Source of the DNA: Prorocentrum cordatum
Lineage: Eukaryota > Sar > Dinophyceae > Prorocentrales > Prorocentraceae
Reading direction: 5' to 3'
Length of the DNA stretch: 64,000 nucleotides
NCBI GenBank assembly: GCA_963575745.1
Contig: CAUYUJ010014544.1
Span: forward strand, 252,501-316,500
Both the position numbers and the translations under genes were made by a program. The notes beneath the pieces were generated by a model. That model was not told the origin of the DNA and ran no database searches. It was given only the letters and a program-made list of their open reading frames with translations. Below, piece by piece: positions 1,291 through 56,119 of this stretch. Position 1 is the stretch's first letter, and each line of letters opens with the position of its first letter.

Positions 1291-1358
1291 ATTTCGGCTG
1301 GTTTTCTCAATGGACCTCCTGTAGTATAACTGCGGAATCTTAAGCCCTGAGAAGCATT

Positions 1359-2674: not shown

Positions 2675-4071
2675 CCACCCTCCTGCTCCTCCTCCACCTT
2701 CTCCTCCTCTCTCTCCTCCTCCTCCTCCCCTCCTCCTCCTCCTCCTCCTCCTCCTCCACATCCTGCTCTTCTTATGTCTATTATTAATATTATTCCTCCT
2801 CCTCCTCCTCCTCCTCCTCCTCCTCCTCCTCCTCCTCCTCCTCCTCCTCCTCCTCCTCCTCCTCCTCCTCCTCCTCCTCCTCCTCCTCCTCCTCCTCCTC
2901 CTCCTCCACCTCCTCCTCCTTCTCCTCCTCTCCTCCTCATCCCCTCTCCTCCTCCTCCTCCTCGTCCCTCCTCCTCCTCCTCTCCTCCTCTCTCCTCCTC
3001 CTCCTCCTCCCTCCTCCTCTTCCCCTCCTCCTCCTCCTCCCTCCTGCTCCTGCTCCTCTTCCTCCTTCTCCTCCTCCTCCTCCTCCTCTCCTCCTCCTCC
3101 TCCTCCTCCTCCTCCTCCTCCTCCTCCTCCGCTTCCTCATCCTCCTCCCTCTCCTCTTCGTCCTCGTCGTCGTCCTCCTCCTCCTCGTCCTCCTCCTCCG
3201 CCGTTTCCTCCTCCTCCCTCTCCTCTCCTCCTCGCCCTCGTCGTCCTCCTTCTCCTCCTCCTCCTCCTCCTCTTCCTCCGCCTCTCCGTACTATGATTCT
3301 TCTTGTGTTGATAAGTACTGTTATTAGTATTGTGATTATTATTATTCGTCCTTTGATTATTCTTATTATGATAATTCCCACGATTATTATTAACAGTAGT
3401 CCTATTATGTATAGAATTAGGAGTAGTATTACTGCTGCTAGTATGATTATCATTAGTATTACTCGTATTGTTATGTATGTGATTATTTCTATTATTCGTA
3501 TGATCATTATTATTAGCATCAGTATTACTAGTATTACTAGTAGTACTATTAGTATTAATGTCAGTAGTATTATTGTTGTTGTTAGTATTATTGTTAGTGA
3601 TGGTATTGTTACTATTATTACTAAATAATAGTAATGCTATTGTCAGTGTTGTTATGACTACTATCATTCGTCTTTGCGATTATTAGCAATATGATTCTTA
3701 GTTTTACTACTATGATTAGTACCATTATTATTGCTTTTATCCATATGATTCTTATTCTTAGTATTCCTCCTCCTCCTCCTCCTCCTCTTTCTCCTCCTCC
3801 TCTTCCTCCTCCCCCTCCTCCTCCTCCTCCTCCTCCTCCTCCTCCTCCTCCTCCTCCTCCTCCTCCTCCTCCTCCCAGTCCTCTTCCTCCTCCTCCTCCT
3901 CCTCCTCCTCCTCCTCCTCTTCCTCCTCCTCCTCCTCTTCGTCGTCCTCCTCCTCCTCCTCTTCCTCCTCCTTCCTCTCCTCTCCTCCTCTCTTCTTTTT
4001 CTTATTATTCCTCCTCCTCCTCCTCCTCCTCCTCCTCCTCCTCCTCCCCCTCCTCCCCTCCCCCTCCTCAT
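2675..4071. repeat. CCT trinucleotide arrays with a TTA/TAT/TAG-type core
   Basis: About 2675-3290 and 3766-4071 are long imperfect (CCT)n arrays. Between them, about 3291-3765 is AT-rich sequence built from ATT, TAG and TAT trinucleotides. Open frames through the arrays translate to poly-Pro/Ser/Leu on plus and poly-Arg/Glu/Gly on minus and are not genes. The right array abuts the 3' end of degenerate LINE 1. Confidence 0.9.
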
Positions 4072-4075
4072 CCTG

Positions 4076-5736: not shown

Positions 5737-7293
5737 TCAGAAAGCCTCCAAACCAGAGCCTGCTCGACAACGACCCCCACCCGACGCAGAGCAGCGCGCA
5801 GAGTTTAGCGTGCAGAGCTCCCACATGCCATCTGCATCAGACAGAACATCACGCGCATGCTCGAGACCGCGCACCATGGCTCGGGCACAGCGCCGCGCCA
5901 CAGCACGCGGGAGAGCGCCTTGACTGGCTCGAGCGCGGCCCGCCAGATCGGGTCGAAGTGGCGCTGCGGCGCAAAAGCGAGCGCGAGGGCGCGGCTCTCG
6001 CCGCCGGCCCTCGCGTCGAGGGGGAGCTGCAGCCCGCGATCTTGAAAGATCAAGCTCCTCCCGGGTGGCGCCTTGAACGGAGGCCCCGCAAGCCGCAGAC
6101 GTTTCCAGGACAGCGCGAGACATCAACGCCGTGGCTTTCCGCCTGGCGCCCCCCCCTCGAAGACGCCGAAGCCGTTTCAACCTCGCCCTGAAAACCCTGA
6201 TGCGCTCGCGCCGAGTGGCCCTCTGGATGCGTCTTCCCCTAGTTTTCAGCGGCACCAGCCTGGTGGCGCGGTCACTGCGGAGGGCGGCGCCACTAGCCAA
6301 AAGACAGCTTTTGTCTTGAACAATGCCCAAGTCAACGCGCGCAAGTTCTCGCTGAAGCGCCGCCCCAGCGCCGGCTATCTCGTCGATCACTCGGCCTCGC
6401 CCCCCAGAACGCTGCAGCCCGAAATCGCGCGCGACAACCGGCCAAAGTACAGCGCGATACTACTTCTGACCGGCGTCTAGCGGCCCCAGCAAAATAGGCT
6501 GCAAAAGCACAGCGGCGAAACCGCGCCCTGGGAAATCGCGGTTTCGGTCGCGAGGCACTCGCCAACCGCCCCTTGAAGGTCCAGCGACTGAAGCGAGCGA
6601 TATACCTCCACCAAAAACATTAACTGCCAAAGCGGAAACTGTTTTTTTCAGCGCGGCCTCCAGCAGATGGCGACGTTCCACGAGCTCGAACGCCTCCTTG
6701 AGGTCAAGCAGCAGGGTTGCCGACGCTCGCCACTGGGACTGAAAATGCTCGGCCCGCGCCGCCTGGAAATGCGCGCGCGCGTCGGCGCGTTTGCCCTCGG
6801 TGCCCCCCCAAGGGGACCTGCAATTAGCTCTCTGCCAGTCGGAAGTCCGTGATCCCCGAAGACGGCCCTGGATGCGGCAGAGACAATGCAGCAGCCCAAG
6901 AAGCCGAACGCCACCGAGAAGTTCCATGATAAAACGGTCTTGTTAGCGAGGGATGGCCACGCGGCCTGCGCCTCGACGCGCCCGATCAGCGCGCAAAACA
7001 ACTCGATGGGCGGCATCGAGCAACGCGGGCAGAAGCCGGGGCGGAACCTGGTCGCATCCGGAACCCGCGCCTGCCCGAAAGGTCCGAATCACCTTCTTGA
7101 GCTCATCGCGGGTTGTGGGAGGGGGGGGGGGGGGCGGGTCTGGGCCCCAGATCACCGGGCCTGGCCGCTTCTCTCCCACCTGCCACCGCCCGTGCCGCTC
7201 CTTCTCAAGCGCCCTCATTTCCCCCATGCCGGCGTTGGAGCGGAGGGTCAAGGAGTCGAGGGTGGGGGGCTGCCAGGCATCAGGCAACTGCAC
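5737..7293 (-). pseudogene. LINE 1 reverse transcriptase remnants
   Basis: Three fragments in different frames line up in the right order. About 7180-7100 carries a segment with GAGSGCDQVPPRLLP, typical of the start of LINE RT domains. About 6720-6660 carries LLLDLKEAFELVERRHLL, the motif A block with its catalytic Asp. About 6390-6310 carries VIDEIAGAG followed by an LGIVQDKSCLLAS-type block, the motif C region with IDE in place of VDD. The frame changes between blocks and the altered catalytic pair mean it cannot be active. Confidence 0.65.
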
Positions 7294-7947
7294 ATGCTCG
7301 AAAAGCGCGGCCGCTCCTCCGACGGTGTGAGATTTGACCCATCGGCCCCAGCTGACGATCTTCGCCTGGGCGGGAGCTCGTGAGCCAGGGGCGCGAACAA
7401 GTCGAAGACGGCGTAATCTAATCTCTCGACGCGATCCAGAGCTCCCAAGAGCGCCGCCGCAAGTTCCGAGTTCGGAATGTCCGACGAGGTCTGGAGCTTC
7501 CGAGTCTCACTATAAGGCCGCAGGGCCCGGGCAACAGTCATGGGCTTCGCCGGGGACTTGAGCAACAGTGCCATGGGCCTCCACCAGACAGCCTGCGGGC
7601 AAAGCCAAGGGCAGGGGACAGGCGCGGGTTTGGCGGGCTTGTGCATCCCAGCCCTCGCACCCCCAGCGCGACCTTAATAGGGCGCGCAAGCTCCCCAGGA
7701 ATCTGATCGACCTCTAGCCACTCGAGCTCGGCCGCCGACGCGAAGACGTTCCAAGCATCTCCCAGATTGGCCGACGACATAGCTTTGGCAGCGACTTCCC
7801 AACGAGCAATATCGGGTTGACTACGGCAACCAATGGGCGACTCTCAAGGAAACCTCCTGGGCGCCGCGGCCATCCCTACAGCTGGCAGGCACTCGAGCGC
7901 GGGGAGCTCAAGAGAGACAGGCGTGCGCGGCGTCGTCGCCACATCTG

Positions 7948-8580
7948 TCAGCTGCTTCGCAGCGCCACCAGACGCCAAAGAGCTGCTGAGGGCGAACAGT
8001 AGATAATATTGTCGGCCGGCGTGCACGCGCCCGCCTCAGAGAGTAAAATGTGCCCATCTAGCGCGCCAGCCCGTCCTGAGTGCGTTAGCACGCCAGGCTC
8101 CATATTGACATCGCCCATCACGATGCAGGGTAAAATAGTTATTGGGAGCACAGCCCCAAGACGACAGAGCAGATCCCACTCGGCAAGGGCAAGACCAATC
8201 TAATTGTGCAGATACACGGCGCACGCCAGAGAACCTCCAGGAACCAGTCCGACATGTAACACAGCAGCTCTCCCGAACTGAATATCCTCAGGAACGGTCT
8301 CCAGGCCACCAAATCCAATATGCTTAGGAACTGCCATCGTGACCCCAGCCGAAGAAACACACGTCGTAAGAGCCTTCGAAAAACGAGCACGCCAACCCTG
8401 TCTACGAAGTTTGTGTTCCCAAGCGCCCGTATCAAAAACGTTGGTCTCCTGAGCTGCAACGAACTGCGAGCCTAGGACAGAAGGAGAGGCGAGGAGCAAA
8501 TCCAAACCATTTCGATCGGTGACGTTCCAGTAAACGAGCCTCCAAGAAACTCGATGCGAACGAGCAGCAGCGGCATGGAC
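7948..8580 (-). pseudogene. LINE 1 AP-endonuclease remnant
   Basis: Minus-strand blocks include a VYWNVTDRNG start, a VAAQETNVFD block (catalytic Glu region) and, in another frame near 8120, VMGDVNMEPG, matching the GDxN motif of AP endonuclease-like LINE endonucleases. It sits between the ORF1 region and the RT remnants as expected. The frame breaks at about 8200-8150, so this is a relic. Confidence 0.6.
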
Positions 8581-8590
8581 ATCGCGTTGG

Positions 8591-9603
8591 CTACCCATGC
8601 AATTTTCGGGCGGCCTCCTCAAGGGCTGTCTCCATCTGCGAGCGCGCGATGCCGCCATCACCGTCGCCAGCAAACTGGTCGAGCCAGTCGCCCTGCTTGA
8701 GGATATGGACCGCCTCGTCCATGTCGATGTCCTGTTTGCTGCCCACTGTGCCGCCCGAGCCGCCGACGACGCCTGGCTGAACAGCAGCACCAGCAGGAGC
8801 ATCAGCAACACCACCGTCATCAAGGTCAGCATCGGCGTCTTCATGTGGAAAGGCCGTCTGCTCGGCTTCGGCCTTCGCTTCTGCCTCTGCCTTGGAATTG
8901 TCCCGCGCCTCCACCACAGCCTTGATGGTTTCCAACACCCTCTGCTCGAGCCCGAACTCAGCAAGCTGATGAAGGGCAGGATCGATAAGCTGAGGACGTT
9001 GAGCTTGAGACAGCTCGCCGAACGCTGTGGCGGCAACCCGCGCCGCCTCGCGCTCCTGAGCCTCCAACTCAAGGTAATTCGTCTTGAGCTCGCCCACGCG
9101 CAGCGCCTGCTTCGCGAGCGCCTCCTGCGCCGTCTTGAACTGCTGCCTGACCCTGTGGACCTGATCCTTGAGCGTGTCGTGCCGCTACTTGGCCTGGCGA
9201 CTGAGCGCCAGCGGGTCTCCATCACGTGCCGCACGCTCAGCCATGATGGCCACCTGCCCAGGAGCGAGCCAGATGCTGCAAGCCTCGAAGCGCTCAGCAA
9301 ACACACAGGGCAACGCACTCTTGCGCTCAGGTGTGAGCTTGGAGCCACCAGCAGCAGCGGGCGCTCCCTCGCCTCGAAGCTGCAGGCGGGGAGCTGAATC
9401 CACGCACCACCAGGAGCACGAGGTTGCACAACAGCAGGCACAGGCCCTTTGTCACGCCCGCACGCCCAGCACGTGGTTCTCCAATGGAAGTTGTTGGTGA
9501 TACCGCAGTTCTTGTGATAGCGCGTCCATGTCTGCTGCACCCACGGTCGGTGAACATTGCGCCCCATTGGCACAAGCGAGGGAGACAAGAACCACACTAT
9601 CAC
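8591..9603 (-). pseudogene. LINE 1 ORF1 (zinc-motif protein) remnant
   Basis: One frame starting near 9603 has a W-rich zinc-ribbon-like segment (YHKNCGITNNFHWRTTCWACGR), comparable with the CxCGxWTW...CxxC segment in LINE 2 ORF1 and a CGGCPSDACWACG segment in LINE 3. A second frame, 9097-8591, encodes a Glu/Ala-rich, probably helical region with acidic stretches. ORF1 proteins of LINEs bind RNA, and a nucleic-acid-binding role is inferred from the zinc motif alone. The two parts lie in different frames. Confidence 0.55.
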
Positions 9604-9697
9604 GAGAGTACAGTGCGGGAGTTACAGTATCAGGAGAGCAATCTGACAGTTCGCTACGAGGGCCACAAAACCCTCTTGCCAAAAAGAAACTCTAGTC

Positions 9698-9716
9698 CTC
9701 GAGCCACCGCTACGGA
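9698..9716 (-). other. Decayed spliced-leader relic, inner copy
   Basis: The minus strand reads TCCGTAGCGGTGGCTCGAG. Compared with the dinoflagellate spliced leader it keeps the first eight bases and most of the last nine, with a 3-nt deletion and changes in the centre. It lies directly downstream of the outer relic, the tandem arrangement expected when a retroposed copy is transcribed, trans-spliced again and re-inserted. Confidence 0.6.
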
Positions 9717-9738
9717 CTTGAGCTAAAATGACTGCGGA
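9717..9738 (-). other. Decayed spliced-leader relic, outer copy
   Basis: This 22-nt minus-strand segment matches the dinoflagellate spliced leader at 19 of 22 positions, with differences at positions 5, 8 and 15, all transitions. It marks the 5' end of LINE 1 and is followed outward by a purine/pyrimidine tract. Confidence 0.8.
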
Positions 9739-10794: not shown

Positions 10795-13135
10795 GGGCAA
10801 CTTGCGCCTCTGGCCAGGGAAAACGAGACCACGAACCAAGGGCCGAGAAAACGAGAAAACGATAAACTGGACCAGTGTCCGGGAAAACGAAACCACGACT
10901 CAGGGGCAGAGAAAACAAGAAAACGAAGCTGGGTCAAGCAAAACGAAACCTTGACCCAGGGGCCGAGAACACGAGAAAACGGAAACACGAATCAGGGTCA
11001 AGGAAAACGAAACCACGACTGAGGGGCCGAGAAACGAGAAGACGAGAAAACAAACCAGGGTCCCAGAGAACGAAACCACGACTCAGGGGTCGAGAAAACG
11101 AGAAAGCGAGAAAACGACACCAGGGTCCGAGGAAACAACACCACGACACCAGGGGCTGAGGAAACGACACCAGGGGCCGAGAAAGCGAGAACACTAGAAA
11201 AATAACCAGGGTACTAGAGAACGAAACCACGACTCAAGGGCAGAGAACACGAGAAAAACGCGAAACCGAAACAGGGTCCGAGAAAACGAGACCACGACTC
11301 AGGGGTCGAGACAACGAGAAAACGAACCAGGGTCAGAGAAAACGACATCACGACCGAAGGACTGAGAAAACGAGAACACTGGAACACGAACCAGGGTCCG
11401 AGAACACAAAACCACGACCCAGGGGGCGAGAAAACGAGACACCGAGAAAACGAACCAGGGCCTGAGAAAACGAAACCTTGACCCAGGGGCCGAGAAACGA
11501 GAAAACGAGACACCGAAAAACAGGGTCCGAGAAAGAACGATACCACGATCCAGGGGCCGAGAACACGCGAAAACGAGACAACTAAACAAGGTCCGAGAAA
11601 ACGAACACACGACCCAAGGGCAGAGAACACGAGAAAACGAGAGAGAACGAACCAGGGTCAGAGAAAACGAAACCACGACTCAAGGTCCGAGAAAACGAGA
11701 AAGCGAAACAACAAACCAGAGTCCGAGAAAACTTGTCACAACCCAGAGGCCGAGAACACTAGAAAACGTGAAGACGAACAAGGGTTCGAGAAAATGCGAC
11801 CACGACCCAGGGGCCCAGAAAACGAGAAAACGAGAACACGAACCAGGGCCAGGGAAAACGAGACCACGACTCAGGGGTCGAGGAAACGAGAAAGCGAGAA
11901 ACGAACCAGGGCCCGAAAAAACGACGCCACGACCCAAGGACCGAGAACACGAGAACACTAGAACACGAACCCCAGTCCGAGAAAATGAGACTATGACCCA
12001 GGGGCCGAGAGAACGAGAAAACGAACCAGGGTCTGAGAAAACGAGACCACTACCCAAGGTCCGAGAAAATGAAGAAAACGACAACAAGCGAACCAGGGCC
12101 CGAGAAAACGGCACCACGACCCAGGGGCCGAGAACACGAGAAAACAAGACACCGAAACAGGGTCCGAGAAAAAAACGAGACCACGACCCAAGGTCAGAGA
12201 AAACGAAACCATGACTCAGGGGCCAAGAGCACGCGAAATCGAGAAAACGAACCAGGGTCCGAAACAATGAAACCACGACTCAAGGGTCGAGAAAACGAGA
12301 AAACGCACAAGGGTCCGAGAAAACGAGACCACGACCCAGGGGCTGAGAAAACGAGAAAATGAGAACACAAACCATCGGAAGAAAGCGAGACCACGACGGG
12401 GCCGAGCAAACGAGAAAACGCGAAACCGAAACAGGGTCCGAGAAAACGAGACCACGACCAAGGGCCGAGAAAGCAAATCAAAGCCAGAGAAAGCGAAACC
12501 ATGACCCAGGGGCAGATAAACGAGAAACCGAACCATGGTCCAAGAACACGAAGCCACTACCCAGGGGCAGAGATAACGAGAAAACGAGAAAACGAACCAG
12601 GGTCAAACAACGACCCAGGGGCCGAGAAAACGAGAAAACTCACCACGGCCCCAGAGAACGAAACCACGACCCAGGTGCCGAGAGAACAAGAAAAGTAGAA
12701 AACGAACCAGGGGCATAGAAGACGAGAGCACGATCCAGGGGCGAAAAAAAGAGAAAACGAGAACACGAAGCAGGGTCAGAGAAAACGAAGACACGACCCA
12801 GGGGCCGAGATAACGAGAAAGAGGGTCCGAAAAAACGAGACACCGAGAAAACGAACCAGGGCCTGAGAAAACGAAACCTTGACCCAGGGGCAGAGAAAAC
12901 GAGAAAACGAGAAACCGAACCAGGGTCAGAGAAAACGAGACCACGACCCAGGGGCCGAGAAAAACGAGAAAACGAACCACGGTCCCAGAAAACGATACCA
13001 CGACCCAGGGGTCGAGAAAACGAGAAAACGAGAGAGAACGAACCAGGGTCAGAGAAAACGAGACCACGATCCAGGGGCAGAGAAAACGAGAAAACGAGAC
13101 AACAAACCAGGGTCTGAGAAAACAAAACCACAACA
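10795..13135. repeat. Long minisatellite (about 2.3 kb, units about 50-70 bp)
   Basis: Dozens of tandem units are built from the words AACCAGGGTC, CGAGAAAACGAGA, CCACGACCCAGGGGC and CGAGAAAACG, in variable order and with substitutions. Frames stay open on both strands because the unit lacks stops in several frames, but the translations are only repeat. It lies inside kinase intron 2. Confidence 0.9.
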
Positions 13136-35619: not shown

Positions 35620-36080
35620 GGGCCCGCCCAGGGGCCAGGGATGAAATCCCACCGCGTAGGTGGTCTGGGGAGGCTTCTCTTCCAACTCCCGAAGCCCAGC
35701 GCTTCCCAGCCCTGCTCCAGCGCTTGCGCGAACTCTGGGTCCGTGGCCAGCCAGCCCGCCTTGCCCCAGTTGATCTTGAGGCGCCCAGCCTGCAAGCCGA
35801 CGAACAGGTCGCGGGCGGCTTGCGAGAGCTGGTCGCCGACAAGGCGAGTCGTGCCCACCGCCTGGAGGCAGTCGTCCACCAGGCTCTGGGCCCGCACCAG
35901 CGGGTAGCGCAGGACTATGTTGCGCAGGAGGGTGTACCTCAGCAGATTGCCCACGCCCGCTGCGCAGTAACACCCAGCCGCCGTAGCGCCGCTGGCCTCC
36001 GCCAGGGGCCCTACCCCTGTGCCCAGGAGGGCCCTCCTGGGCTGGTGGGAGTTGGTGCGCGGCGCCCTCAGGAGGATCAT
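35620..36080 (-). pseudogene. LINE 3 reverse transcriptase fragment
   Basis: The frame from 36080 has GCYCAAGVGNLLRYTLL (motif B-like) and AQSLVDDCLQAV, motif C with both catalytic Asp, then LQAGRLKINWGKAGWLATD, which matches the motif D/E pattern after VDD in LINE RTs (LINE 2 has LRRRHCELSLDQSHLLAS there). It ends at the TCC tract. The N-terminal half of RT should lie at 36080-37300 but is unrecognisable. Confidence 0.6.
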
Positions 36081-38549
36081 CGGAAACTTCGTCTCCGCAG
36101 CCTGCTCGGGCAGCTCTTCGCGACTTCGCGACGGATGAGCTCGTAGTACACCGTGAGGCCATCCCCGTCTTCTTCGCGAAGCTGGTCATCATAGCGTGCA
36201 CGAAGCTCGCCTTCTCGCGCGCGCGTCCTGCAGCCCCCCAGTGGAACGACTCGTCGACCCTGCGCTCCTAGGCTGCTGCGATAGGTTGTCTCAACTTGGA
36301 CCACACTCTTATCCAGGTGCTGGCCAAGAGGTCGGGCCTGACTCCCCCTGGCGAGTGTTCGGGCAGGAACGCGACTAGGAGTAGCCTCAGCGGCCCGCGC
36401 CTTGGGTCGAGCTCCCAGCTGTGGACAGTGCCCAGGACAGCCTAGCGGCACAGCACAGGGCCCATCTGAGTTGGCGCGGGAGCATTCTGTCCCAGCCTAA
36501 GCCAGTGGCCTCGACGCAGGGCGCCCAGCTCGTCTAAGGTGATCGACGGAAAGCTGGCCCAGTCCCCTCGCCCGCGCCGCGCCCGCGCCAGGGGGCCCTC
36601 GTCCTTGGCGCGGTCCGTGGACCCACGGGGCCTCCCACTACCGCGTGAGGAAGGCCATGGCCGCGTCGCCAGCAAACGGCAGGCCCTCGCATGTATCCTC
36701 GCCGTCGTGCTCGATCAGCGCGGGTGGGATCGGGTTGCGTTCTTCGATGAAGCGGTGGGCCCGCTGCCCCCCACCTTGCGCGCCGCCTCCAATGCCCGCG
36801 CGCGCCGCTCCGCCGAGCGACGCCGGCGGCCCCCGGCACGCATCCCGCAGGCGTCGTCGGTGATGCCCACGAGCAGCGCGTGGTAAGCGTGCAGTTCCAT
36901 CGAAGCAATGGCACTGTGGTCCCAGGTCGCCTTCCTGTGGGCAAGCCACCTCGCTGAAATCGAAGGACCTCCTCGCCCGCGCCTGCCCGCCGAATCGGGA
37001 GTGCCAGTTCCATCCGCGCTCGTTCTCGTGGGCGCGCGCGAGGGCGGCCCCCTGCTGGCCGCCGCGAAGCTCGCCCACGGCCTGTGATCCTTGCTCGCGG
37101 TCGCCTTCAGGGTCAGGTCCCACGCGCGGGCCAAAGGCTCCTTGACCACCTGGAGGCCGCCCTCTGGGAACGCCAGTCCAGCCGGCGCAGCCTGCCCAGG
37201 TCGTCCTCCGCCATGAACCAGAACTCCGAGGCCCTAGCCAGGTCCCCTGGGCCAACCCCGATCAGCCAAGGCCAGCTGCTCCCGTTGGGGCGCCTCCCGG
37301 GTAGGCGGCGGCAGGCCCTTCGGGCACCTGCTGGGGTAGAGCGCCCTGGTGATGGTGGCCCGCATGTGCGCCCCCCTGAGCGCGATAGTGGTCGGCGAAT
37401 GCGGGCTGGTCGGGGCATCGCCGAGGGCCTTAACTGCCTCGACTCGGTGGGCAAGCACTGCGGCCACGCTGCCAAACTCATGCTCCTTCTTGCCACATGT
37501 GTAGAGCCACGGTCTCGCCGCCGCTGCCCCTACTGCCGAGAGCGCTGCCGGCCCGCCCGGGCGGTCGAGCGGCCCTGGCCCTGCCCCCACTGCCAGCGCG
37601 CCGAAGAGGTCGGGGCCCGACCGCCGCGCCCGCCTAGCTGCAGCGCTCAGGCGCTGACTCGACTTGGCGCGGGCCCCCTGAGCGCACGCCGCGCCATGCA
37701 CCTGCTGCTTGTCATTGCTCCGCTCCAGGGAGGCTTGGCCGCCGGCCAAGGCGCTGGCATTGACTGAGACCAGCGCGAGCTCCTCTGGCGCCCCCTGCTG
37801 GTCTCGGGCATCCTGACGTGCGTCTGGGCCTCAGCCCCCGCGGCGCTCCCACCTGGCGGTCCTGCGCGAGCTGGCTTGGTCGTAGGAATCACTCCGTCTG
37901 ATGCCTCAGCGCTCGCCCTGGCCGAGGGAGCCGCGTCCGCTGCCGCGCGTCCGCCTCCGCAATGGCCTCCCACATGAGGCGCTGGCGGCCCTCGCCCTCC
38001 AGCCGATCCGCCCTGGCGGTTGAGCTCCAGCCCGCTCTGCGCCGTCTCGGCGGGCGCCTTCGCCGCTCGGGCGCGAGCGTGGCTGCAGTTGCCCTGCCCC
38101 GGCAAATCAGCCTTCTCAAGGGGGCCTCGAGGTCGGCCCTGCAGCGCCGCCCGTTGGCAGCGACGCCAATGAGAACGGCCTGCCTGGCCCATTGGGCTGC
38201 GCGCCGAAGTTCCAAGGGCGCGCGCGCTGGCCCGAGTTCTGCCCCTGCCCTCTCCACTGCCCCCCCCCCCCCCCCTCGCGCCGCAGCCCCCCTCGGTGGC
38301 CGGGGCGGGGGCCGAGGTTCTGCCGAGGGTGGCCCTTCGCAGTCCAAGTTCGGAGCGATGCGCTGCGAGCTGGCTGCGGCCCCTCGCCGCTCGCGGGCTC
38401 TGCGCCGAGGAAGCTCTCGACGACGCCACTCCAGTCAGCTCCGTGGCCCCCAGGCAGCTGCTCCAGGTTCGCGGTGGTTACCCCGCCGCGGTGACCTGGG
38501 GCTGCCGCTGAGTTGCATGGGGCCCAGGCCATGCTTCTCCGTGAGGCTG
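36081..38549 (-). pseudogene. LINE 3 central part, unrecognised frames
   Basis: Overlapping minus-strand frames (36451-36077, 37255-36638, 37749-37234, 38347-37889) contain scattered protein-like blocks but no intact endonuclease or RT motif. By position it should encode endonuclease and the N-terminal half of RT. High GC keeps many frames open, so ORF length is not evidence here. Confidence 0.35.
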
Positions 38550-47190: not shown

Positions 47191-47431
47191 GCCAGACGAA
47201 GCTGCCCGCCAAGGCGCACACTGAGCAGCAGCAGCAGCCCGCCAGCGTGCCTATGCAGAAGACCAGCAGCAGAAGAGTACGCGTGCCACCGAACTGGTCC
47301 GCCGCCACCGCCAGCTGTCGGGCCTCCGCCACGACACTGCCAAGGTGGCGAGCCCAGTCAACCGCGATTTGCCCAGCCGCAAGGAATCCTGAATGAGCGA
47401 CAAAATTCGGAAGCCTGCGGTCGCCGCTCTC

Positions 47432-47549
47432 TAAAAGGCTTAGGCCAGCACGGCGGCGGACAGACGCACAGCACACAAGTGGGCCCCCCTCTGTGTCCTG
47501 CCGTGCAGCGGCCGAGACTGTTGGACAGGCAGTCACGTTCACAGAGCTA
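47432..47549 (-). repeat. Retrotransposon A split direct repeat A1 (118 bp)
   Basis: The 5' terminal repeat of the element. It pairs with A2 at 41035-41152 (about 93 percent identical by hand count) and abuts a GGA tract on its outer side. Confidence 0.9.
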
Positions 47550-47552
47550 AAC

Positions 47553-47600
47553 AGAGGAGGAGGAGGAGGAGGAGGAGGAGGAGGAGGAGGAGGAGGGGGA
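47553..47600. repeat. GGA tract between retrotransposon A and LINE 2
   Basis: (GGA)n on the plus strand. It is the outer flank of A1 on one side and the 3' flank of LINE 2 on the other. Confidence 0.95.
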
Positions 47601-47675
47601 TTTTTTCCAGCGCGCCGCTGCCAACCAAACTCCAGAGTGCAAGAGATGCAGGGGTTGCCTGGCAGGGAAAAGGAA

Positions 47676-49373
47676 TTACGCCACCCAGCTCTTGGAGGTC
47701 TTAGACGGCGGAAGGCCTTTACAAACCCGCTGTAAAACCTCGAGCTGGTGCTTAGTTATGGCATGCGGTCCAAGCGCGGCCACAGGACACGGCCCCCGCA
47801 GGGAGTCAGGGCGAGCTACTGCCCAAGAGCCGCACTCGCCGCAAAAGGTGAACGCACCTTTCTGCCACAAAACGTGTGAAGGGTGGACCGCCTTGCCAGC
47901 GACCCAAGGCGCAGCTCGCACAGGGGGCGGGTCAAGCCTCAGGCGACGCCAGAGGGAGTCATCCCTGGCGGCCAGGGCCCGACCTGGCCTCGCCCACTTT
48001 TTGACAGTGACCTCCTCCGCCTCCACCGAAACCGAACTCCCAACTCCACCTCCTCCATAAGCAGGGCAAGCAGAGCGGAGCCTCGCTCGGAGCGAGGGGG
48101 CAACATCGGAGACCGAAGCCTTGCACATCCCACAAGTCCAAACGCAAGAACCGAACTCCCAAACGTGCGACGAACCCCTCACATCGGCTTCGATCCACCG
48201 TCGCCTGCGGAGCACAAGATCAATGGGCTGCTTGCGCAGCCTGCGATCAGGCTCGGCCTCGATGGCAGCACGCTCGAGAATGATAGAGGCATTGCGCTTG
48301 AGGATAGCACAAGCATTGGCAACGAGCTCATTATAAGCCTGAACAACTCCACTCGGGACCTGGCATTCAAGAGCACGCAGGTCAGCGAGCTCATCAGCGA
48401 CAGAGTTGAGCACAACATGGCCCCAGTCTACAGAGTCGCCAAAACGGGCGAGCTTTTGGGCATCCTCCAGCAGGTGGCTGGGAACATGAAAAACCTGAAG
48501 TCCCCAGATCGCTCCGAGAGGAGCTGCCAGAATTCCCACCAGAGATCAAACTTACCAAGCCTCGCAGAGGCCGCTCGGCCAGCCAGGAAACCATTGACAA
48601 TATTGGCATGGACGGTGACCACGCGCAGATCTTGGGCAGGGTCAACGCATCGAAGGCACTCAACTATGGCCGCAAGCTCTGCGCGGGGGACCGTCTGTCG
48701 AACCGAATCGAGCACACCTGTGCCTCCACAGTCCCAATCAAAGTCATCGCTAGGACGGAGCCGCACAAAGGCAAAGGCAACTCGTCGGAGGACAGGAAAC
48801 TTGGCAAACTGGCCACCCGTGCCGTCAGTGGCATAGAGGCCTCCTGGCAGACAGCCTGGAGACAAGGCCCCAGGACAACGCCGCCCCTGGAGGTCCCTGG
48901 AACCAGCCAGGAACAGGAGGGAGGTTGAACCAAGAAAGGTGAATAAGTCCTCGCATCCAGAAGCACGGGTACTGGAAAGCTTCCTGCTGGGCGCCGTGCC
49001 TAAGGTGCTGAGAGTCAACAATCTCCTGGACCTGCGACGAAGCATTACACATGCACTCCCAAAACCTGTGGCAGGAGGTCTCGGGGTCACGCTGGCAACG
49101 CCGACAAATAGGATCAGGAGCCAACTGGGCCGTGTGCCTGCTCTCCTCAGTCCAGTAGCCTCCAGAGACCAAGAGCCGAATCATAGCCGCGAGGTCCCGA
49201 CGCCCGTCCTTCTCGAGGGAGGCAACAAGGTCCCAGACATGATGAAGAGAGACAGGCCCCTGGATTCCAGCACCATCCAAGTGCTCAGAAGCCCGGCGCC
49301 ACTGAAGCGTGTCAACTGATTCGTCAAAGGCCTCAAGAAGGGGGCCTAGAGGGCCGCGCCCGTCCTCCATCAT
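47676..49373 (-). pseudogene. LINE 2 zinc finger, RNase H and C-terminal zinc-ribbon region, frameshifted
   Basis: Three overlapping frames in order. 49373-48825 has CRRCQRDPETSCHRFWEC, a CxxC..HxxxxC finger common between RT and RNase H in LINEs. 49090-48428 has GGLYATDGTGG and PRAELAAIVECL, the first Asp and the Glu of RNase H. 48539-47676 has VPSHLL and NSVADELADL (late RNase H Asp), then WTCGMCK and FTFCGECGSW, possible zinc ribbons. RNase H removes the RNA template strand. The frame changes make the product unmakeable as one chain unless the assembly has errors. Confidence 0.7.
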
Positions 49374-49383
49374 CTGCCACTCG

Positions 49384-52300
49384 TCACCGCAAGGCGCGAT
49401 GAGAGTGAGGTGAGGGGCACTGCCATCCTACCGCCAAAATCGTGGCTTGAAAAGCCGCCATCGGCCCACGGACCCAGGCCCACCCTTTTCGGACCTTGGC
49501 CAAAGAGGCCGCCCAGTGTCGGGCCAGGCGACGGAGGAGACCTGGGCGCCCCGCCAGACGAGCAAACCACGACTTGACGACGCGACGGACGTACACCTGG
49601 AGGGGGTCCTGGCCATAGCCGTAAGTGAGACGGATAGCGGTAGTGGCACACACTCCTCGCTGAGGGGTCTTGCTGGCAGCACGAGCCATGCTGCGAAGGC
49701 CTTTGAGCATGGAGGGCGAGACACCGTGAATCTCTGGCGCCCACATGGCCTTCGCATAAGCATTAGGATAGAACAATTTACTGGCTTGCTTGCACGTGCG
49801 CCCAAACACAAAAATCTTATTAGTGGCATCCCGCCCCTTGGAAAAGCGGGTCTTCCTGACGGCCACAGTCCTCCTGGCGCCCAGAGCGGCGTCGTGCCCC
49901 AAGCCCCTGGCAGCCAGAGCCACCGAGAACTCGCAGCCCTCACGGACGGCAATCCTGGAAAGCTCAGCCCGAAGGCCTGGCGAGGACGCAAGCAGATGGG
50001 ACTGATCCAGGGACAACTCACAATGACGCCTCCTGAGGCCAGTGAGGAGGGCTCGGAGCAGGATGGGAAAGGTAGCAGCGATGGAAGAATGCGCGCCGAG
50101 GAGACGAGCTGAGATATCATCAACCCACTCCCGCAGCCGAAGGCCACCGACCCATCCATTGGCTCCTGCGAGGGGTTGGTGCAAATGAGCACGCGCAAAG
50201 GAGGTAGCCTGGCCACATCCAGCCAACATCCCCCCATGAGACAGGATCCCAGGATGGACAGCCCCCTCCAACGACAAATGCCGAACCCCCATATAAATAT
50301 CGATGGCCAGGGCCAACAGACGGAGTGGGTAATCTAATTCGCGAGCCGCTTCCACCAAGTCCTGAAGACAGACTTGGTCATAATAGTTCTTCATATCAAG
50401 CAAAAGGCCCCCGACCTGGAACCCGCCGTGGAGGGCAAGTTCCGTTTCAAGCTCGTCAAGCCAACCAGCAACATCAGCCGAGCCCCCAACGGTCTGGTCC
50501 CAGGGCCCATGCGCCTCACGGTCCCAAGCCGCGATGAAAGGCTTCCTGATGCGCAAGAGAAGCGCGTGCACAAACCCGAGCAGCGCTATGGGCCTTTTTC
50601 CCCCGTCAGGCTTCGGAATGAGGGCAATCAAGGCAAAGAGCTGCTGGAAAGGCAAAGTCCACTGCTCCTCAATGGACTCGAGAAGCTGTATGAGGTGGAC
50701 CTTGGCATCATCACTAGCCTCCTGAATTAAGCGCGGCTCGATAAAATCCAGGCCCTGACCCCTGGAGTCAGGCATCGACTTGAGCGCACGATTAAGGGTG
50801 TCCAGGTCGATGGGTGGCAAACGCGGGGACAACCGAGCACTCTTACGCAGGGCAGCTAACGCAGCTCGCGCTTCGCCCTTATCGTGCTGTTGCCAGATGG
50901 CCGTCCACGCGGCCGCTTCAAAATCTAAGAGCTGATCCAAGGCTGAGCAGGGTCCTTCCTCACCGATCTTTTCGGCCGCCAGAGGGTCCAGGGGTGGCTT
51001 TAACAACCGATGAGCCGGCCCCGCAGACCTGAAAAGCGCACCCTGGAGCCAGGCCTTCCACGAGGCCTTCTGAGCCTGAAGAGCGTCACGGTGGGATTTT
51101 TCAGACACCTGCTGGAGCTCAGCTAGCAAGTCATGCAGCCCGTCGGAAGGAATATCAGAAATATGTTGAAAACGATTCTTCCACAAGTTAAAGGTGCCAC
51201 ACTGACCAGCATCGGAGGGGCCAGACGGGGAAGGGGGCACCTGCTGAGAAAGCCAAGCCACAGTGGCACGAAACTGAGCCGCATGCTTACGGTCAGGCTG
51301 CGGCGGGATATCCTCTATGGAACCCTGTGGGACAAGCTTGAGCAGCAGCGTAAGCTTGACAAAGGCAGCTTGCCAGAATCGGGCGCCACGATCAGCCTGG
51401 CAAGGCCCCTCAACCTGGGCGGCCGCGAGGGGCACCAAACGCAGCCTGGGCTCCTGGCAACGACCAATAAACTGGAACACCTGGTCCTGGGCCAAGCCAA
51501 GCCTCGAGAAAGCCTCAAGCTCCAGAGCAACAATCCAGGTAGACAACTGGGCCCCTAAGTCGGGAGAGACCTGGATGTTGTCATGCTCGAGCTTGAGGAG
51601 ACTGGCAGCAACATAGTTGGCCTTGAAGAAGCCTGGCCGCTTGCGTTGCAGCGGCCGAGCCTGCACCAAGAAGTGCGGCCAGGCTTCAACAGGGGCAGCA
51701 ACGCCTTTGACAGGAAGGGGCTTGGGTCGCATGGCCTTCCAAACCATGATGGCCCTGGGAGAAGCCGAGACCTGAAATTCCAAAGCGGCGTGGGTGCCCC
51801 AAGGCACTGGAACAAGCGACCTAAACTGGACGGCGCTAGAGAAACTAGCAGAGACCAACGCGTAATCGATCCGACTGTTGGAGACTCCTGAACACGTAAC
51901 CGAAACACCAGGCATAGGAACAGGGACAAGGCCGAGAGGCTCCAGCCAACCTGACTCCTCGAGACCACTCTGGTCAACCTGCCAGTCACCCACCACAAAG
52001 GCGGGAACACCTGCCGCGCTCAGATGGGCGCCGAGGTCCGCCAGCAGCTCGAGGTTCTGAACGCTGAGCTCGCCCCCCGTGACCAGGTAGACTGGGGCGA
52101 TGGCCAGGGAAACCTTCCGCAGCCTCAGAGCGCACAACAACCACCGAGCCGTACCAGCCGTAGTCCATTCACCCGCCTCGCATGTCAATTGCGAGAGCCC
52201 AAGATGAGAGCGAGCAGCAACAATAACTCCTGACGATGCACCATCAGCGAGCGTGGGCTCAGCGGCCTGCGCCACAACCTTCCAGCCCAGCTTGCGTAGC

Positions 52301-52725
52301 TTCTTGGCCATCGCCTGGTACTTGGAGCCGCGCATCCTGTGCTCGACAAAAATGATGATATCAGCCGAGCATCCTGCAACCCACCTGCAAGCAGTGGGGC
52401 CCCACACACCGATGTTGGAGTAGACAATGGACAAAGAGCGCTGAGAGGCGGTGTCGCTGTCAGGGTCAGGCCCAGGCCCCTGACTCTCATCGTCCTGCGA
52501 ATCTAGCAAAACGGGCTCGCCTCCTGGTCCACAGGGGTCACCACAGGGCGATTGCTCCAACCCCGTGGGCCGCAGGGAGGGGGTCGACGGCCCTGCGACG
52601 AACGAACCTGCCGAACCAGGATTTCCAGCAGCACAGACAGGAGATCCACCAGTAGCGACGATAGCCTCGGGGTCTGAAGCGCGACGGTTGGGAGAAGTGT
52701 CAAACTCACGTTCAGCAAAGACCAT
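49384..52725 (-). CDS. LINE 2 ORF2: AP-endonuclease and reverse transcriptase
   Basis: 1,113 codons from an ATG at 52725. The N-terminal region is an AP-endonuclease-like domain: SIVYSNIGVWG, IIIFVEHRM (catalytic Glu), FVVGDWQVD (GDx motif) and SRIDYALVS, ending GTHAALEF in the SDH position. RT follows in the second half: FALIALIPKPDGGKRPIALL, GGLLLDMKNYYDQV (motif A Asp), GGMLAGCGQATSFARA (motif B) and LREWVDDISARL (motif C with both Asp). The endonuclease nicks the target and RT copies the mRNA from the nick. Catalytic motifs are present, so this ORF could have been active recently. It stops 11 bases before the frame that continues the element. Confidence 0.85.
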   Translation of the reverse strand: MVFAEREFDTSPNRRASDPEAIVATGGSPVCAAGNPGSAGSFVAGPSTPSLRPTGLEQSPCGDPCGPGGEPVLLDSQDDESQGPGPDPDSDTASQRSLSIVYSNIGVWGPTACRWVAGCSADIIIFVEHRMRGSKYQAMAKKLRKLGWKVVAQAAEPTLADGASSGVIVAARSHLGLSQLTCEAGEWTTAGTARWLLCALRLRKVSLAIAPVYLVTGGELSVQNLELLADLGAHLSAAGVPAFVVGDWQVDQSGLEESGWLEPLGLVPVPMPGVSVTCSGVSNSRIDYALVSASFSSAVQFRSLVPVPWGTHAALEFQVSASPRAIMVWKAMRPKPLPVKGVAAPVEAWPHFLVQARPLQRKRPGFFKANYVAASLLKLEHDNIQVSPDLGAQLSTWIVALELEAFSRLGLAQDQVFQFIGRCQEPRLRLVPLAAAQVEGPCQADRGARFWQAAFVKLTLLLKLVPQGSIEDIPPQPDRKHAAQFRATVAWLSQQVPPSPSGPSDAGQCGTFNLWKNRFQHISDIPSDGLHDLLAELQQVSEKSHRDALQAQKASWKAWLQGALFRSAGPAHRLLKPPLDPLAAEKIGEEGPCSALDQLLDFEAAAWTAIWQQHDKGEARAALAALRKSARLSPRLPPIDLDTLNRALKSMPDSRGQGLDFIEPRLIQEASDDAKVHLIQLLESIEEQWTLPFQQLFALIALIPKPDGGKRPIALLGFVHALLLRIRKPFIAAWDREAHGPWDQTVGGSADVAGWLDELETELALHGGFQVGGLLLDMKNYYDQVCLQDLVEAARELDYPLRLLALAIDIYMGVRHLSLEGAVHPGILSHGGMLAGCGQATSFARAHLHQPLAGANGWVGGLRLREWVDDISARLLGAHSSIAATFPILLRALLTGLRRRHCELSLDQSHLLASSPGLRAELSRIAVREGCEFSVALAARGLGHDAALGARRTVAVRKTRFSKGRDATNKIFVFGRTCKQASKLFYPNAYAKAMWAPEIHGVSPSMLKGLRSMARAASKTPQRGVCATTAIRLTYGYGQDPLQVYVRRVVKSWFARLAGRPGLLRRLARHWAASLAKVRKGWAWVRGPMAAFQATILAVGWQCPSPHSHRALR

Positions 52726-53212
52726 GGAGCGGGCGTGACGCACAAGTTACTCTTCCCATTCGTCAGGGTCTGCTTGCGAAAGCAGAAGCATGTTGGTATG
52801 GTAGCGAGCCCTCACACTCCTCCTGGACTTCCAGGCCGAGAGACATATGTCCTGAGCCACGTCACGCCTCACGATAGCCAAGTTCTCAATGCCAGTCCGA
52901 GCCGACTGCTCCATAACAAGGACAAGGTAGACGCCCTGGGCTAGCATGTCAGAAACGTAGGTGACACATAAGCGCATCTAGTGAGCTTGGTTGCCAGGCT
53001 CATCCAACAGACACGAATCCTGGAGCCAGAAATTTGTGCAAGACCGAAGCCGACGCTCAAGACTAAGTCGCTGAAGAATGGCAGCACGCCGTTCAGGATC
53101 CTGATCCTTGCAAGTGAGGACAGAGTTCGCGGTGTGCCCTGCAGCGGGCTCCCGCAGGACCGCGCGCCCTTGGGAGTGAGGGGCCGTCCCCTCTCCAGCG
53201 GCGCCTCCCACG

Positions 53213-53587
53213 TCACGCGCCTTCTGGGGCCAGCGAGACAGCCTGCCTGCCCTTGAAGCCGAAGAGCACGAGGCCGAGGTCGACGCCGAACCCGATGCAG
53301 TAGATGCCGCAACCGAAGAAGAAGTGGCCGTACAGCAAGCACATGTGGCGTCGTCTGCCGAGCCTCCAGCAAGACGCGCGCCGCGGGATCCCGTGCTGAG
53401 GTCTTGGCAGTGCCAACCTGCAGCAGGTGGCGTCCGCGGGGTCATTGCCTTCGCAGACACGGTGAGTGAGCGCCCATCGCACGAAGTCAAAGGAGACGAA
53501 AAAGCACCAGAAGAGGACGCCACAAGCGGGAAAGAAGAAGAGGAGCAGCCTGCCGTCGAAGTGGACGGTGCCGAGGAGAGCGAACAT
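53213..53587 (-). CDS. LINE 2 inter-ORF frame, hydrophobic (doubtful)
   Basis: 124 codons between ORF1 and ORF2 on the coding strand, with two hydrophobic stretches (LLLFFFPACGVLFWCFFVSF and FFFGCGIYCIGFGVDLGLVL) that could span a membrane. The opposite strand is also open here and encodes an acidic peptide. I do not recognise it. It may be a spacer whose composition happens to look hydrophobic. Confidence 0.25.
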   Translation of the reverse strand: MFALLGTVHFDGRLLLFFFPACGVLFWCFFVSFDFVRWALTHRVCEGNDPADATCCRLALPRPQHGIPRRASCWRLGRRRHMCLLYGHFFFGCGIYCIGFGVDLGLVLFGFKGRQAVSLAPEGA

Positions 53588-53665
53588 GAAGAGGCCGATC
53601 TTGAGAGCGCACCGACAGAGCTGCAGGTAGAACAGCTCTCACACCCTTGACCACCGTCAGCAGAG

Positions 53666-54856
53666 CTAGGAGCCAGGCTCGCGAGCCTCAACCTTGGCCC
53701 GAGCTGCAGCCGCCTTGGCCCGTGCGAGAGTGTCAGAGCGCGCCTTTTCGATCCGCTTCTCCATGTCGGTCGGCTCGGCAGGGGCCCCAGCAGCCATGGG
53801 CTCAGCCTTCGGCGGATCAGCCGCAGGCGCCTGAGAGGAAGCAGCACCCTGGCTGCCCGCACCTTGAGAAGCCGCCACCCCTGTCGCAACCGCGCCATCA
53901 ACAGTCTTGCGCTTCTTACGCAACTCGCCCATCCGCTTCTGGTATTCCTCCTGGTGCGTCTTGTACTGGGATTTAATGCTCGTGAGCGCTCCGTGCAAGA
54001 GGGTCTTGACCTGCTGCGACTGCTCGAGCTTGAACTTTTCAAATCCCTCGCGGCCCTCGGCCGAGAATGCAGGCCCCGAGACGTCGAGCTCTTCACCAAA
54101 GTCGAGCTTGATCTCATCAGCGGAGTCCTTGAAGAGGGCATCGAGGGAAATGACGTTCTTGCTGGGAGTGGGCTCAGCAGGCTTAAGAACTCCGACGGCC
54201 AGCGTACGAGTGGCTTGCTCAAGTATTTCAGCGTTCTCAAGGTCCTTTGCCATGAGCTCGTCAAGGTGCTTGTCAAGGTCGCTGGCCTCCTTGTCCAGCG
54301 CCGCGCGGCGCGCCAGGGCCTTGTCAAGCTTCTCCTGGGAAGCCTTCTTGGCCTGCGAGGCACGCTGCCACTCGGCCTGAGGCGTCGCCTGGGGCTGGGG
54401 CGGCGGCTTGGGCACGAACTGAACGAGCAGTTTCTGGGCCAGGTCGGGCGCAAGGTGCGACGCAGCCTCCTTGACAGCCGCGAGAGCTTGAGGAGGAATG
54501 GCCTCAGATGGGCCCTGCTGCAGCTGCTGCGCCTGGGTACCCTTGCGCCCGCGTGCCTTGGACTTGCCGCCTCCGTCACCCCATCCTGACTCCTCGGCAC
54601 CGGTGTACAGAAGCATCTGGCCGCCGCCGCCGACAGAGGAGCTGGGAGAGTGGCACTGGGACTGACACCCGACACAGAAATTGGACCGCTTGGCCAGGAG
54701 ATCATTCCAAGTCCAATGGCCACAAGAGCACACAGTGTACAGCCGAGCACCACGATTCTGCCCAGCCTTGGCGCCCCCAGGCGGAACTCGGATCCAGGGC
54801 TGCCTCGTCCAAGTTTCTTCCGCATCATCAGGGATGCGCCACGGGGCAGGGGCCAT
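53666..54856 (-). CDS. LINE 2 ORF1, zinc-ribbon and coiled-coil protein
   Basis: 396 codons from an ATG 162 bases downstream of the spliced leader. Residues about 40-70 have YTVCSCGHWTWNDLL followed by NFCVGCQSQC, a CxC..CxxC zinc-ribbon-like motif. Residues about 160-220 (KKASQEKLDKALARRAAL, then ASDLDKHLDELMAKD) are charged and heptad-like and probably form a coiled coil. A second helical stretch is near 270-310 and the end is Ala/Lys-rich. Zinc-binding plus coiled coil is the usual layout of a LINE ORF1 RNA-binding protein. The frame is intact. Confidence 0.75.
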   Translation of the reverse strand: MAPAPWRIPDDAEETWTRQPWIRVPPGGAKAGQNRGARLYTVCSCGHWTWNDLLAKRSNFCVGCQSQCHSPSSSVGGGGQMLLYTGAEESGWGDGGGKSKARGRKGTQAQQLQQGPSEAIPPQALAAVKEAASHLAPDLAQKLLVQFVPKPPPQPQATPQAEWQRASQAKKASQEKLDKALARRAALDKEASDLDKHLDELMAKDLENAEILEQATRTLAVGVLKPAEPTPSKNVISLDALFKDSADEIKLDFGEELDVSGPAFSAEGREGFEKFKLEQSQQVKTLLHGALTSIKSQYKTHQEEYQKRMGELRKKRKTVDGAVATGVAASQGAGSQGAASSQAPAADPPKAEPMAAGAPAEPTDMEKRIEKARSDTLARAKAAAARAKVEAREPGS

Positions 54857-55018
54857 CGCGGCGTCGTAGCAACTAGCTCCGTCAGGAGCTCACGAAAGAT
54901 GGGCTGCCAGAGGCCCGTGCAGTACTGGCGAAAGCTGTCAGGCACAAGGCCTTGGCACTGCTGCGGACTAGCAGCTTCCAGTTCGGCACGAGGGCGCAGA
55001 GCCCTCAGGTGCAGCATT

Positions 55019-55040
55019 CTTGAGCCAAAATGGCTACGGA
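55019..55040 (-). other. Dinoflagellate spliced leader in genomic DNA (complete 22 nt)
   Basis: The minus strand matches the dinoflagellate spliced leader at all 22 positions, from TCCGTAGCC to GGCTCAAG. It is the first sequence of LINE 2 and is preceded by (TCC)n. Spliced leaders are added to mRNAs in trans, so its presence in DNA here shows that a mature mRNA was reverse transcribed and inserted. Confidence 0.95.
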
Positions 55041-55088
55041 GGAGGAGGAGGAGGAGGAGGAGAAGGAGGAGGAGGAGGAGGAGGCGGG
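55041..55088. repeat. GGA tract at the LINE 2 5' end
   Basis: (GGA)n on the plus strand ((TCC)n in the element sense). It merges with the first TCC of the spliced leader. Confidence 0.95.
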
Positions 55089-55526
55089 GGAGGAGCATGA
55101 TGGTCTTCCGACAAAAAAGGCACGCGCGCTATCTGGCGGCTTCGCGCGCAGGGAGATCGCCAGACATCTTCTCCGGCGCAAGTCCCAGGGCCGCATCGGG
55201 CGGATCGGCCAACGGCGGCTCAACGCGAGATTTTGAAATCAGAACCCAAAGGGGCCCGCAGTGGGCGCAACGCGCCTGGCAGTCTACCCGGCAAGGGCAC
55301 CCGAAAGGGGGCCGCTCAGAAATCGGAAGACGGCGCGACGTCGCCCAAGCTCCCAGGAGCCTGAACGACGGCACTCTGGAAGCCTCGGGGGACCCCGGTA
55401 ACCTGGTTTCCAAAACGCCCCAAGAGGAATTGCCGCAAATACCACTCACTTCTGCCGACGGGATGCACCTCGCAAGCCTCTGGAGAATAGCGCGGGCAGC
55501 CCGGCGATCTGGGAACAGACTGGATC
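55089..55526. other. Stretch without a recognised gene
   Basis: Unique-looking sequence between the GGA tract and the GA tract. Open frames on both strands have no recognisable domain. It is the remaining pre-insertion DNA between LINE 2 and retrotransposon B. Confidence 0.4.
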
Positions 55527-55696: not shown

Positions 55697-55846
55697 ATCT
55701 GTGCAAGCCGGGGAGACTCTCGGGGGCCAGAACTGTTTTGCATCCGCAACTCTGTGTGATGACTCGACCCGGAGCTCCGTGCGACATTGACTGGCTGGGC
55801 GAGGCACCTCGACCAAGGAAAACGAGTCCCGAGACAATCACGATCC
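55697..55846 (-). repeat. Retrotransposon B split direct repeat B2 (150 bp)
   Basis: Begins ATCTGTGCAAGCC and ends CACGATCC on the plus strand. Identical by eye to 55970-56119. Confidence 0.9.
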
Positions 55847-55969: not shown

Positions 55970-56119
55970 ATCTGTGCAAGCCGGGGAGACTCTCGGGGGC
56001 CAGAACTGTTTTGCATCCGCAACTCTGTGTGATGACTCGACCCGGAGCTCCGTGCGACATTGACTGGCTGGGCGAGGCACCTCGACCAAGGAAAACGAGT
56101 CCCGAGACAATCACGATCC
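55970..56119 (-). repeat. Retrotransposon B split direct repeat B1 (150 bp)
   Basis: Identical by eye to 55697-55846. It lies 45 bp downstream of the ORF2 stop. Confidence 0.9.

Follow-up and report, generated by a model that had tools for sequence, protein, structure and literature searches.

The analysis of a 64,000-nucleotide stretch of the Prorocentrum cordatum genome (hereafter the window) showed that one of its LINEs, designated LINE 2, begins with a complete dinoflagellate spliced leader (SL). The best explanation, to which we assign a probability of roughly 0.8 on the strength of the sequence comparisons, is that LINE 2 is a copy of a family of APE-type non-LTR retrotransposons which propagates from its mature trans-spliced mRNA, the SL being renewed by re-splicing. 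What can be read directly is the insertion of an RNA that ran from the SL to the tail, the CCT target, target-site duplications (TSDs), and tandem SLs.

The features of the element are listed in Table 1. All 22 positions of TCCGTAGCCATTTTGGCTCAAG were identical to the dinoflagellate SL DCCGTAGCCATTTTGGCTCAAG, and a control scan of 100 shuffles, in which up to three mismatches were allowed, gave a mean of 0.00 matches. The original prediction had placed a whole 22-nt SL against the 5' end of LINE 2 and the ORF1 start codon 162 nt downstream of it, and both statements were borne out; it named neither the strand, which is minus, nor the SL-like site that heads LINE 1. LTRs were absent, with no long repeat common to the two ends of the element beyond CCT. 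Coding goes on past position 49384 in other frames, and because it is thus split over frames, the window copy is probably inactive and probably a fossil of the process. Upstream of LINE 2, the window also carries an exact 150-bp direct repeat (55697-55846 and 55970-56119).

Table 1. Features of LINE 2 and of the head of LINE 1, in positions of the window
Feature	Position	Strand	Remarks
Complete 22-nt dinoflagellate SL, first base of the LINE insertion	55019..55040	-	22/22 identical; TSD of relatives ends at SL base 1
(CCT)n microsatellite adjoining the SL upstream; target	55041..55082	-	CCT on LINE sense strand
LINE 2, 7,440 bp; opens with SL base 1 and closes with the final A of the 3' A-run (CTGGAAAAAA)	47601..55040	-	Both ends common to relatives among L039-L046
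(TCC)n microsatellite right behind the A-run, 3' target flank	47553..47600	-	
5' UTR hairpin GCTGC-TAGTCC-GCAGC	54960..54975	-	Stem with paired changes in other CCT-type families, among sequences chosen for showing the hairpin
ORF1, 396 aa, putative zinc finger CSC...CVGC (by eye)	53666..54856	-	ATG at 54856; no Pfam match of note
ORF2 open part, 1,119 aa, EEP-type endonuclease and reverse transcriptase (RT)	49384..52743	-	Recognised via homologues
RNase H-like stretch TDGTGGQ...RAELAAIVECL	48600..48835	-	By eye
Decayed SL (3 mismatches) heading LINE 1 (about 4069-9738)	9717..9738	-	Flanked by (AGG)n on either side

The first 1,041 nt of the LINE were used as a query against the genome (4.13 Gb in 21,875 contigs), which gave 154 candidates; 40 of these, on 40 contigs, were scored and all 40 of their 5' ends were read (copies and sites are denoted by L numbers). 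The results showed that the SL stood at the start of 38 of the 40 scored copies with 0 to 2 mismatches, which is the share of leader-headed relatives that the original prediction had proposed to determine. Among the first 30 copies, 29 were SL-headed (27 with a single and 2 with a tandem SL), and the exception, L033, starts 66 nt further in against a CCT repeat and is thus a 5' truncation. The other 10 copies consisted of four with the same 5' UTR and the SL, one of them (L056) in tandem, and six that belong to a sister subfamily and differ in their 5' UTR; the SL was found in five of the six, and L050 has a decayed SL tail and no CCT tract. Copies of the main subfamily have a common junction, at which the SL is followed by AATGC, and in the 70 to 90 nt inspected upstream of the SL only the CCT repeat appeared conserved by eye among family copies.

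A test independent of the SL gave the same picture. The exact 17-mer that follows the SL was found at 24 places genome-wide in comparison to 4 for the reversed control; 23 of the 24 were SL-headed copies already read, and the remaining one was a chance match with no LINE sequence after it. None of the LINE 2-family copies read reached the 5' end without an SL or SL remains. The SL-headed start is thus confirmed by these comparisons as a property of the family and not a single case, and a one-off capture of the SL by LINE 2 was rejected since the SL is family-wide. Relatives that run on upstream with conserved non-leader sequence, the outcome named beforehand as speaking against the prediction, were seen neither among the 5' ends, nor in the 17-mer search, nor through the 3' ends described below. 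The other danger named beforehand, that the leader is an assembly chimera with cDNA, is excluded because the SL stands at the same or the sister-subfamily junction in 38 of the 40 copies, each from a different contig; as these copies also show private mutations, repeat flanks of their own and often TSDs, any assembly or library artefact joining cDNA to genomic DNA has a negligible probability.

A second search used the last 1,001 nt of the LINE and gave 190 candidates, 40 of which were scored. Thirty of these 3' ends lay on the contig and strand of a known 5' end, about 5 to 7.4 kb away. For the other 10, the 801 nt at the expected place of the 5' end held no element sequence in nine cases (L143 partly N) and N throughout in one. 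The nine unpaired 3' ends are read as truncated copies, an internal indel that shifts the 5' end beyond the 801 nt being the alternative, so that 5'-truncated copies, as expected of APE-type elements, are represented by L033 and by these nine of the 40 3' ends.

A short A-rich run closes the window copy and eight relatives (L039-L046), and in most of them the CCT/TCC repeat comes next. Of 20 further 3' ends that were sought, 15 were found and 5 were absent from the stretch taken, for a total of 24 found, and at least three A in a row were present at 22 of the 24 (L020 and L041 have only two). A TSD was defined as an exact direct repeat of at least 12 nt which ends at SL base 1 and recurs no more than 22 nt from the 3' tail. 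This was reached by 15 of the 24 copies in comparison to 82 of 552 mismatched pairs (Fisher p = 3e-7), and the length was 14 to 16 nt in 10 of the 15; L036, for instance, has TCCTCCTGTCCAGCGC on both sides of the insertion. The TSDs of L036, L040, L042, L044, L019, and L020 were non-uniform. The repeats blur the ends, with nine of the 24 copies (including L032, unreadable because of N) falling outside the definition and 15% of the mismatched pairs reaching it. Outside the 15, imperfect TSDs could be recognised by eye in L039 and L041, where they are visible because just a few repeat bases come after the A-run.

Since the TSDs end exactly at SL base 1, this base is the first inserted base, and since the TSD ends there on one side and adjoins the A-rich tail on the other, the inserted molecule ran from the SL to the tail, that is, it was a mature trans-spliced mRNA. 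The A-rich 3' end with TSDs is as in APE-type elements, and in being a retroposed transcript headed by a DNA-encoded SL the element resembles DinoSL retrogenes. The surveys of the two ends together support the earlier claim that the template copied was a trans-spliced LINE mRNA with its 5' end set by a splice acceptor.

The same data bear on two other ways in which an SL and a LINE could come to abut. If the LINE targeted SL RNA genes, as SLACS, CZAR, and NeSL do in other phyla, the SL would be a remnant of the target and would abut the LINE just as observed; the flanks, however, consist of CCT repeats instead of SL RNA gene sequence, the SL is not part of the TSD, and the region 47400-55400 gave no Rfam match at E up to 1. 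An SL RNA gene as the target was rejected by the flanks, the TSDs, and Rfam, and we consider it scarcely credible. Only slightly less improbable is that the SL was joined during integration by template switching of the RT from LINE RNA to SL RNA or to another mRNA, for which LINE-1 chimeras with other RNAs in mammals, described in the accessible part of PMC13174262, offer a precedent, but the junction in the copies read is at the same base within a subfamily and the joined part is the SL exon alone, with neither varying junctions nor SL RNA intron sequence seen in those copies.

The renewal of the SL by re-splicing was approached through the AGs inside the leader, which ends in CAAG and contains CCGTAG. 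Three of the 40 family copies (L024, L029, and L056) carry a tandem in which the SL is followed by CCATTTTGGCTCAAG, i.e., by an SL cut after its own CCGTAG. Genome-wide, 12,939 exact SLs and 1,202 tandem SLs with a 15-nt relict cut exactly after CCGTAG were counted (copies, not events), and the reversed control gave 0; tandem SLs at five of 48 sampled sites (L004, L067, L072, L074, and L098) are in line with the genome-wide level of about 9%. The tandem copies L024 and L029 are each nearest to single-SL copies, at 96.9% and 97.6%, respectively. The 1,202 tandems are best explained as the result of inserted SLs having been used as acceptors at an internal AG. The original prediction had further expected the inserted DNA to lose its acceptor, and this was not supported as stated, given the CAAG and CCGTAG of the SL and the 1,202 relicts cut after CCGTAG; a daughter copy probably need not lose the acceptor, with the SL itself carrying AGs.

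The SL was also compared with the sequence behind it in the 27 single-SL copies. The variable columns of the SL comprised 8 private and 0 shared variants, in comparison to 189 private and 152 shared in the next 1,019 columns (Fisher p = 0.0097), although the SL has only 22 columns and 5 of 91 downstream windows of equal size likewise lack shared variants. With private but no shared variants, the SL seems to decay after insertion and to pass on no inherited variant, as renewal by splicing predicts, and the absence of shared variants is thus suggestive in favour of such renewal. The explanation to be weighed here is a single capture of the SL, which would since have been inherited as an ordinary 5' end, with transcripts starting at SL base 1 from an internal promoter and without re-splicing from cycle to cycle. 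Main-subfamily copies do share one SL junction, and a single SL is indistinguishable from a re-spliced one, but we regard this explanation as unlikely in view of the tandem SLs cut at CCGTAG within the family and genome-wide, the lack of any shared SL variant among the 27 copies, and the presence of the same SL in families with different 5' UTRs.

When the LINE 2 ORFs of the window were scanned directly with Pfam, nothing of note emerged, and the coding content was recognised through homologues. Residues 80-1000 of ORF2 had at least four homologues at E of 1e-3 or below (the best 7,990 candidates by common words were scored), two of which bear names as P. cordatum proteins. The endonuclease domain PF03372 was found above the cut-off in homologues P0001 and P0004, and the RT domain PF00078 above the cut-off in P0003 and below it in P0001 and P0002; the alignment of P0003 with ORF2 spans both domains. 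The Pfam domains of the homologues thus give ORF2 the EEP endonuclease and RT of an APE-type element. A further RT-like fragment lies at about 35670-36570 of the window on the minus strand (match to P0001, E = 1e-17), and the SL scan of the window found no SL near it.

The insertions of the LINE 2 family are concentrated in one simple repeat. A CCT-like tract was found upstream in all 38 SL-headed copies, in 37 by script and in L027 by reading, as the script had picked another SL there and the family SL of L027 does have the tract; L050, with its decayed SL, is without it. The second SL of L027 (about 1313-1334, reverse strand) is exact, lies on the opposite strand about 170 nt upstream of the family SL, and has the purine side of the repeat before it, so that two SL-headed insertions may stand head to head within a single repeat at this locus. 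Genome-wide, 12 pyrimidines stood directly upstream of 3,624 of the 12,939 exact SLs in comparison to 9 of 1,812 DCCG sites in the window.

The share of (AGG)n flanks was estimated from 48 SL sites, the first in listing order among 100 listed of the 12,939. Judged on the 45 nt before the SL, 22 sites had a CCT-like and 11 an AGG-like flank; the remaining 15 had another sequence, in several cases a different microsatellite. The corresponding values were 3.2% and 1.6% for CCT-like and AGG-like sequence at control positions in the window, and 2.2% and 4.8% at the SL loci themselves at more than 300 nt from the SL. The SLs of L069, L082, L088, L092, L096, L097, and L105 stand behind other microsatellites, e.g., (AT)n, (CAT)n, (CA)n, and (CAGACA)n, and since L069, L088, and L097 have one common 5' UTR, LINE families may differ in their repeat target. 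LINE 1 and the B' family are seated in (AGG)n, which shows that an SL-headed family can do without a pyrimidine tract upstream.

Other LINE families also have an SL at the head. Three relatives of LINE 1 (L057-L059, 71% to 76% alike) each have an SL with 0 to 2 mismatches and (AGG)n upstream, and in a family about 68% to 70% alike, six of the seven places read have SL and (AGG)n, two of them in tandem, L065 being without. In both groups the bases behind the SL (TCCGTAGC...GCTC..G) resemble, by eye, an older whole SL. A 2.3-kb tandem array with copies about 73% to 84% alike (10812-13131) lies about 1 kb upstream of LINE 1 in the window.

Twelve of the 48 SL sites, hand-picked to span the flank types, were followed 1.5 to 3.7 kb downstream. 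Endonuclease or RT evidence at E of 1e-3 or below was present in nine of the 12, a figure which mixes tblastn and Pfam, and the other three had weak or by-eye motifs; no clear host gene was seen behind the SL at these 12 sites. The control comparison, made with tblastn only, gave seven of 12 sites in comparison to 4 of 58 strand-windows of the window (p = 1.6e-4), and three of those four positive strand-windows lie in the two SL-headed LINEs. These results indicate that SL-headed LINEs are many in the genome. A hairpin whose loop of 6 nt reads TRGTCC in 7 of 11 sequences occurs about 30 to 60 nt behind the SL in CCT-type LINE families. In the set compared (the window copy, L001, L005, L049, L067, L081, L085, L086, L089, L090, and L099), the four stem pairs hold in all 11 sequences and three of these pairs change on both sides, although the count overstates the signal because the 11 sequences were chosen for showing the hairpin. 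In a separate observation, an AT-rich contig of 7,157 bp filed as viral (IMGVR_UViG_3300045993_001077; L107:2746-2913, minus) carries two exact 21-nt SL cores 147 nt apart, one of them followed by an ATG frame; this is either a viral sequence tagged with an SL or a dinoflagellate contig filed in the wrong place.

Under propagation from a trans-spliced mRNA, the following cycle may be proposed. The endonuclease of the element would nick the purine strand of the repeat after GGA, and target-primed reverse transcription would run to the capped end of the SL-mRNA. The new copy would then be transcribed from outside, perhaps by riding on a neighbouring promoter as the original prediction supposed, and a new SL would be added at an AG within the old one, the terminal CAAG as the usual acceptor giving a single SL and CCGTAG giving a tandem SL. 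The host SL RNA gene would in this manner supply the 5' end of the element in each cycle, and in the LINE 2 family the CCT target would supply the pyrimidine tract adjoining the SL; in AGG-type families this role of the CCT tract fails, and an AG of the flank may serve. We put forward tentatively, at somewhat less than even odds, the stronger version in which the element has no 5' end of its own, the host SL RNA gives it one in each cycle, and each insertion rebuilds a trans-splice acceptor, with the SL as the AG and the chosen (CCT)n as the pyrimidine tract. If true, target choice and expression would be one mechanism. Setting the 5' end by trans-splicing is also one way in which a LINE could keep that end complete.

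SLs upstream of genes serve to recognise retrogenes, and since endonuclease or RT sequence was found behind nine of the 12 hand-picked SL sites, SL-based counts of retrogenes may need a LINE filter. DinoSL-tagged retrogenes, i.e., recycled mRNAs, are described in the accessible parts of PMC6050394, PMC7245778, and PMC12014239 as having a DNA-encoded SL, with tandem or relict SLs from repeated trans-splicing and retroposition; a 2008 report, cited in PMC6050394, described the recycling of SL-tagged mRNA into dinoflagellate genomes, and an Oxyrrhis EST study pointed to LTR elements as the agents (PMC3942190, in the part available). SL-tagged retrogenes and LINEs as possible agents are treated within the available portions of PMC6050394, PMC12014239, PMC7245778, PMC10666404, PMC10235124, PMC3229502, PMC11453091, PMC8045281, PMC3942190, PMC3315495, and PMC4558846, a literature that also covers an LTR transcript spliced to an SL in C. 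elegans and endogenous viral sequences with SLs in their vicinity. LINE 2 shares the DNA-encoded SL and the tandem or relict SLs with the DinoSL retrogenes, whereas their cargo is a host gene and the enzyme goes unnamed in the portions of that literature available, and in the LINE 2 family the SL heads an element that encodes endonuclease and RT, shows TSDs and an A-rich tail, and is targeted to a repeat. No report of LINEs with an SL 5' end was found in the literature searched, as far as its available text goes and with subscription journals thinly covered. SL-tagged retrogenes are known, and SL-headed LINEs may be new. The LINEs with a visible target, tail, and TSD appear to have copied SL-mRNAs, at least their own.

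SLACS, CZAR, and NeSL are LINEs that insert into SL RNA genes, and they resemble LINE 2 in being linked to spliced leaders but differ in their target, with CCT flanks and TSDs that exclude the SL in LINE 2. Microsatellite-targeting LINEs insert into simple repeats as LINE 2 does, which differs from them in the use of (CCT)n in one orientation and in the SL at the 5' junction. Microsatellite targets of LINEs are mentioned in the part of PMC4640811 available. L1Tc/ingi of trypanosomatids are likewise LINEs in a host with SL trans-splicing, but according to the available parts of PMC8190864, PMC4748587, and PMC4035085 they have a 5' Pr77 promoter, unspliced transcripts, and an HDV-like ribozyme; the Rfam search of the LINE 2 region at E up to 1 gave no match to a ribozyme family. 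There are, finally, the APE-type LINEs, with which LINE 2 shares the EEP endonuclease and RT, the A-rich 3' end, the TSDs, and the 5'-truncated copies, and from which it differs in an endonuclease/RT too divergent for Pfam on the window copy and in a 5' end that is the SL of the host.
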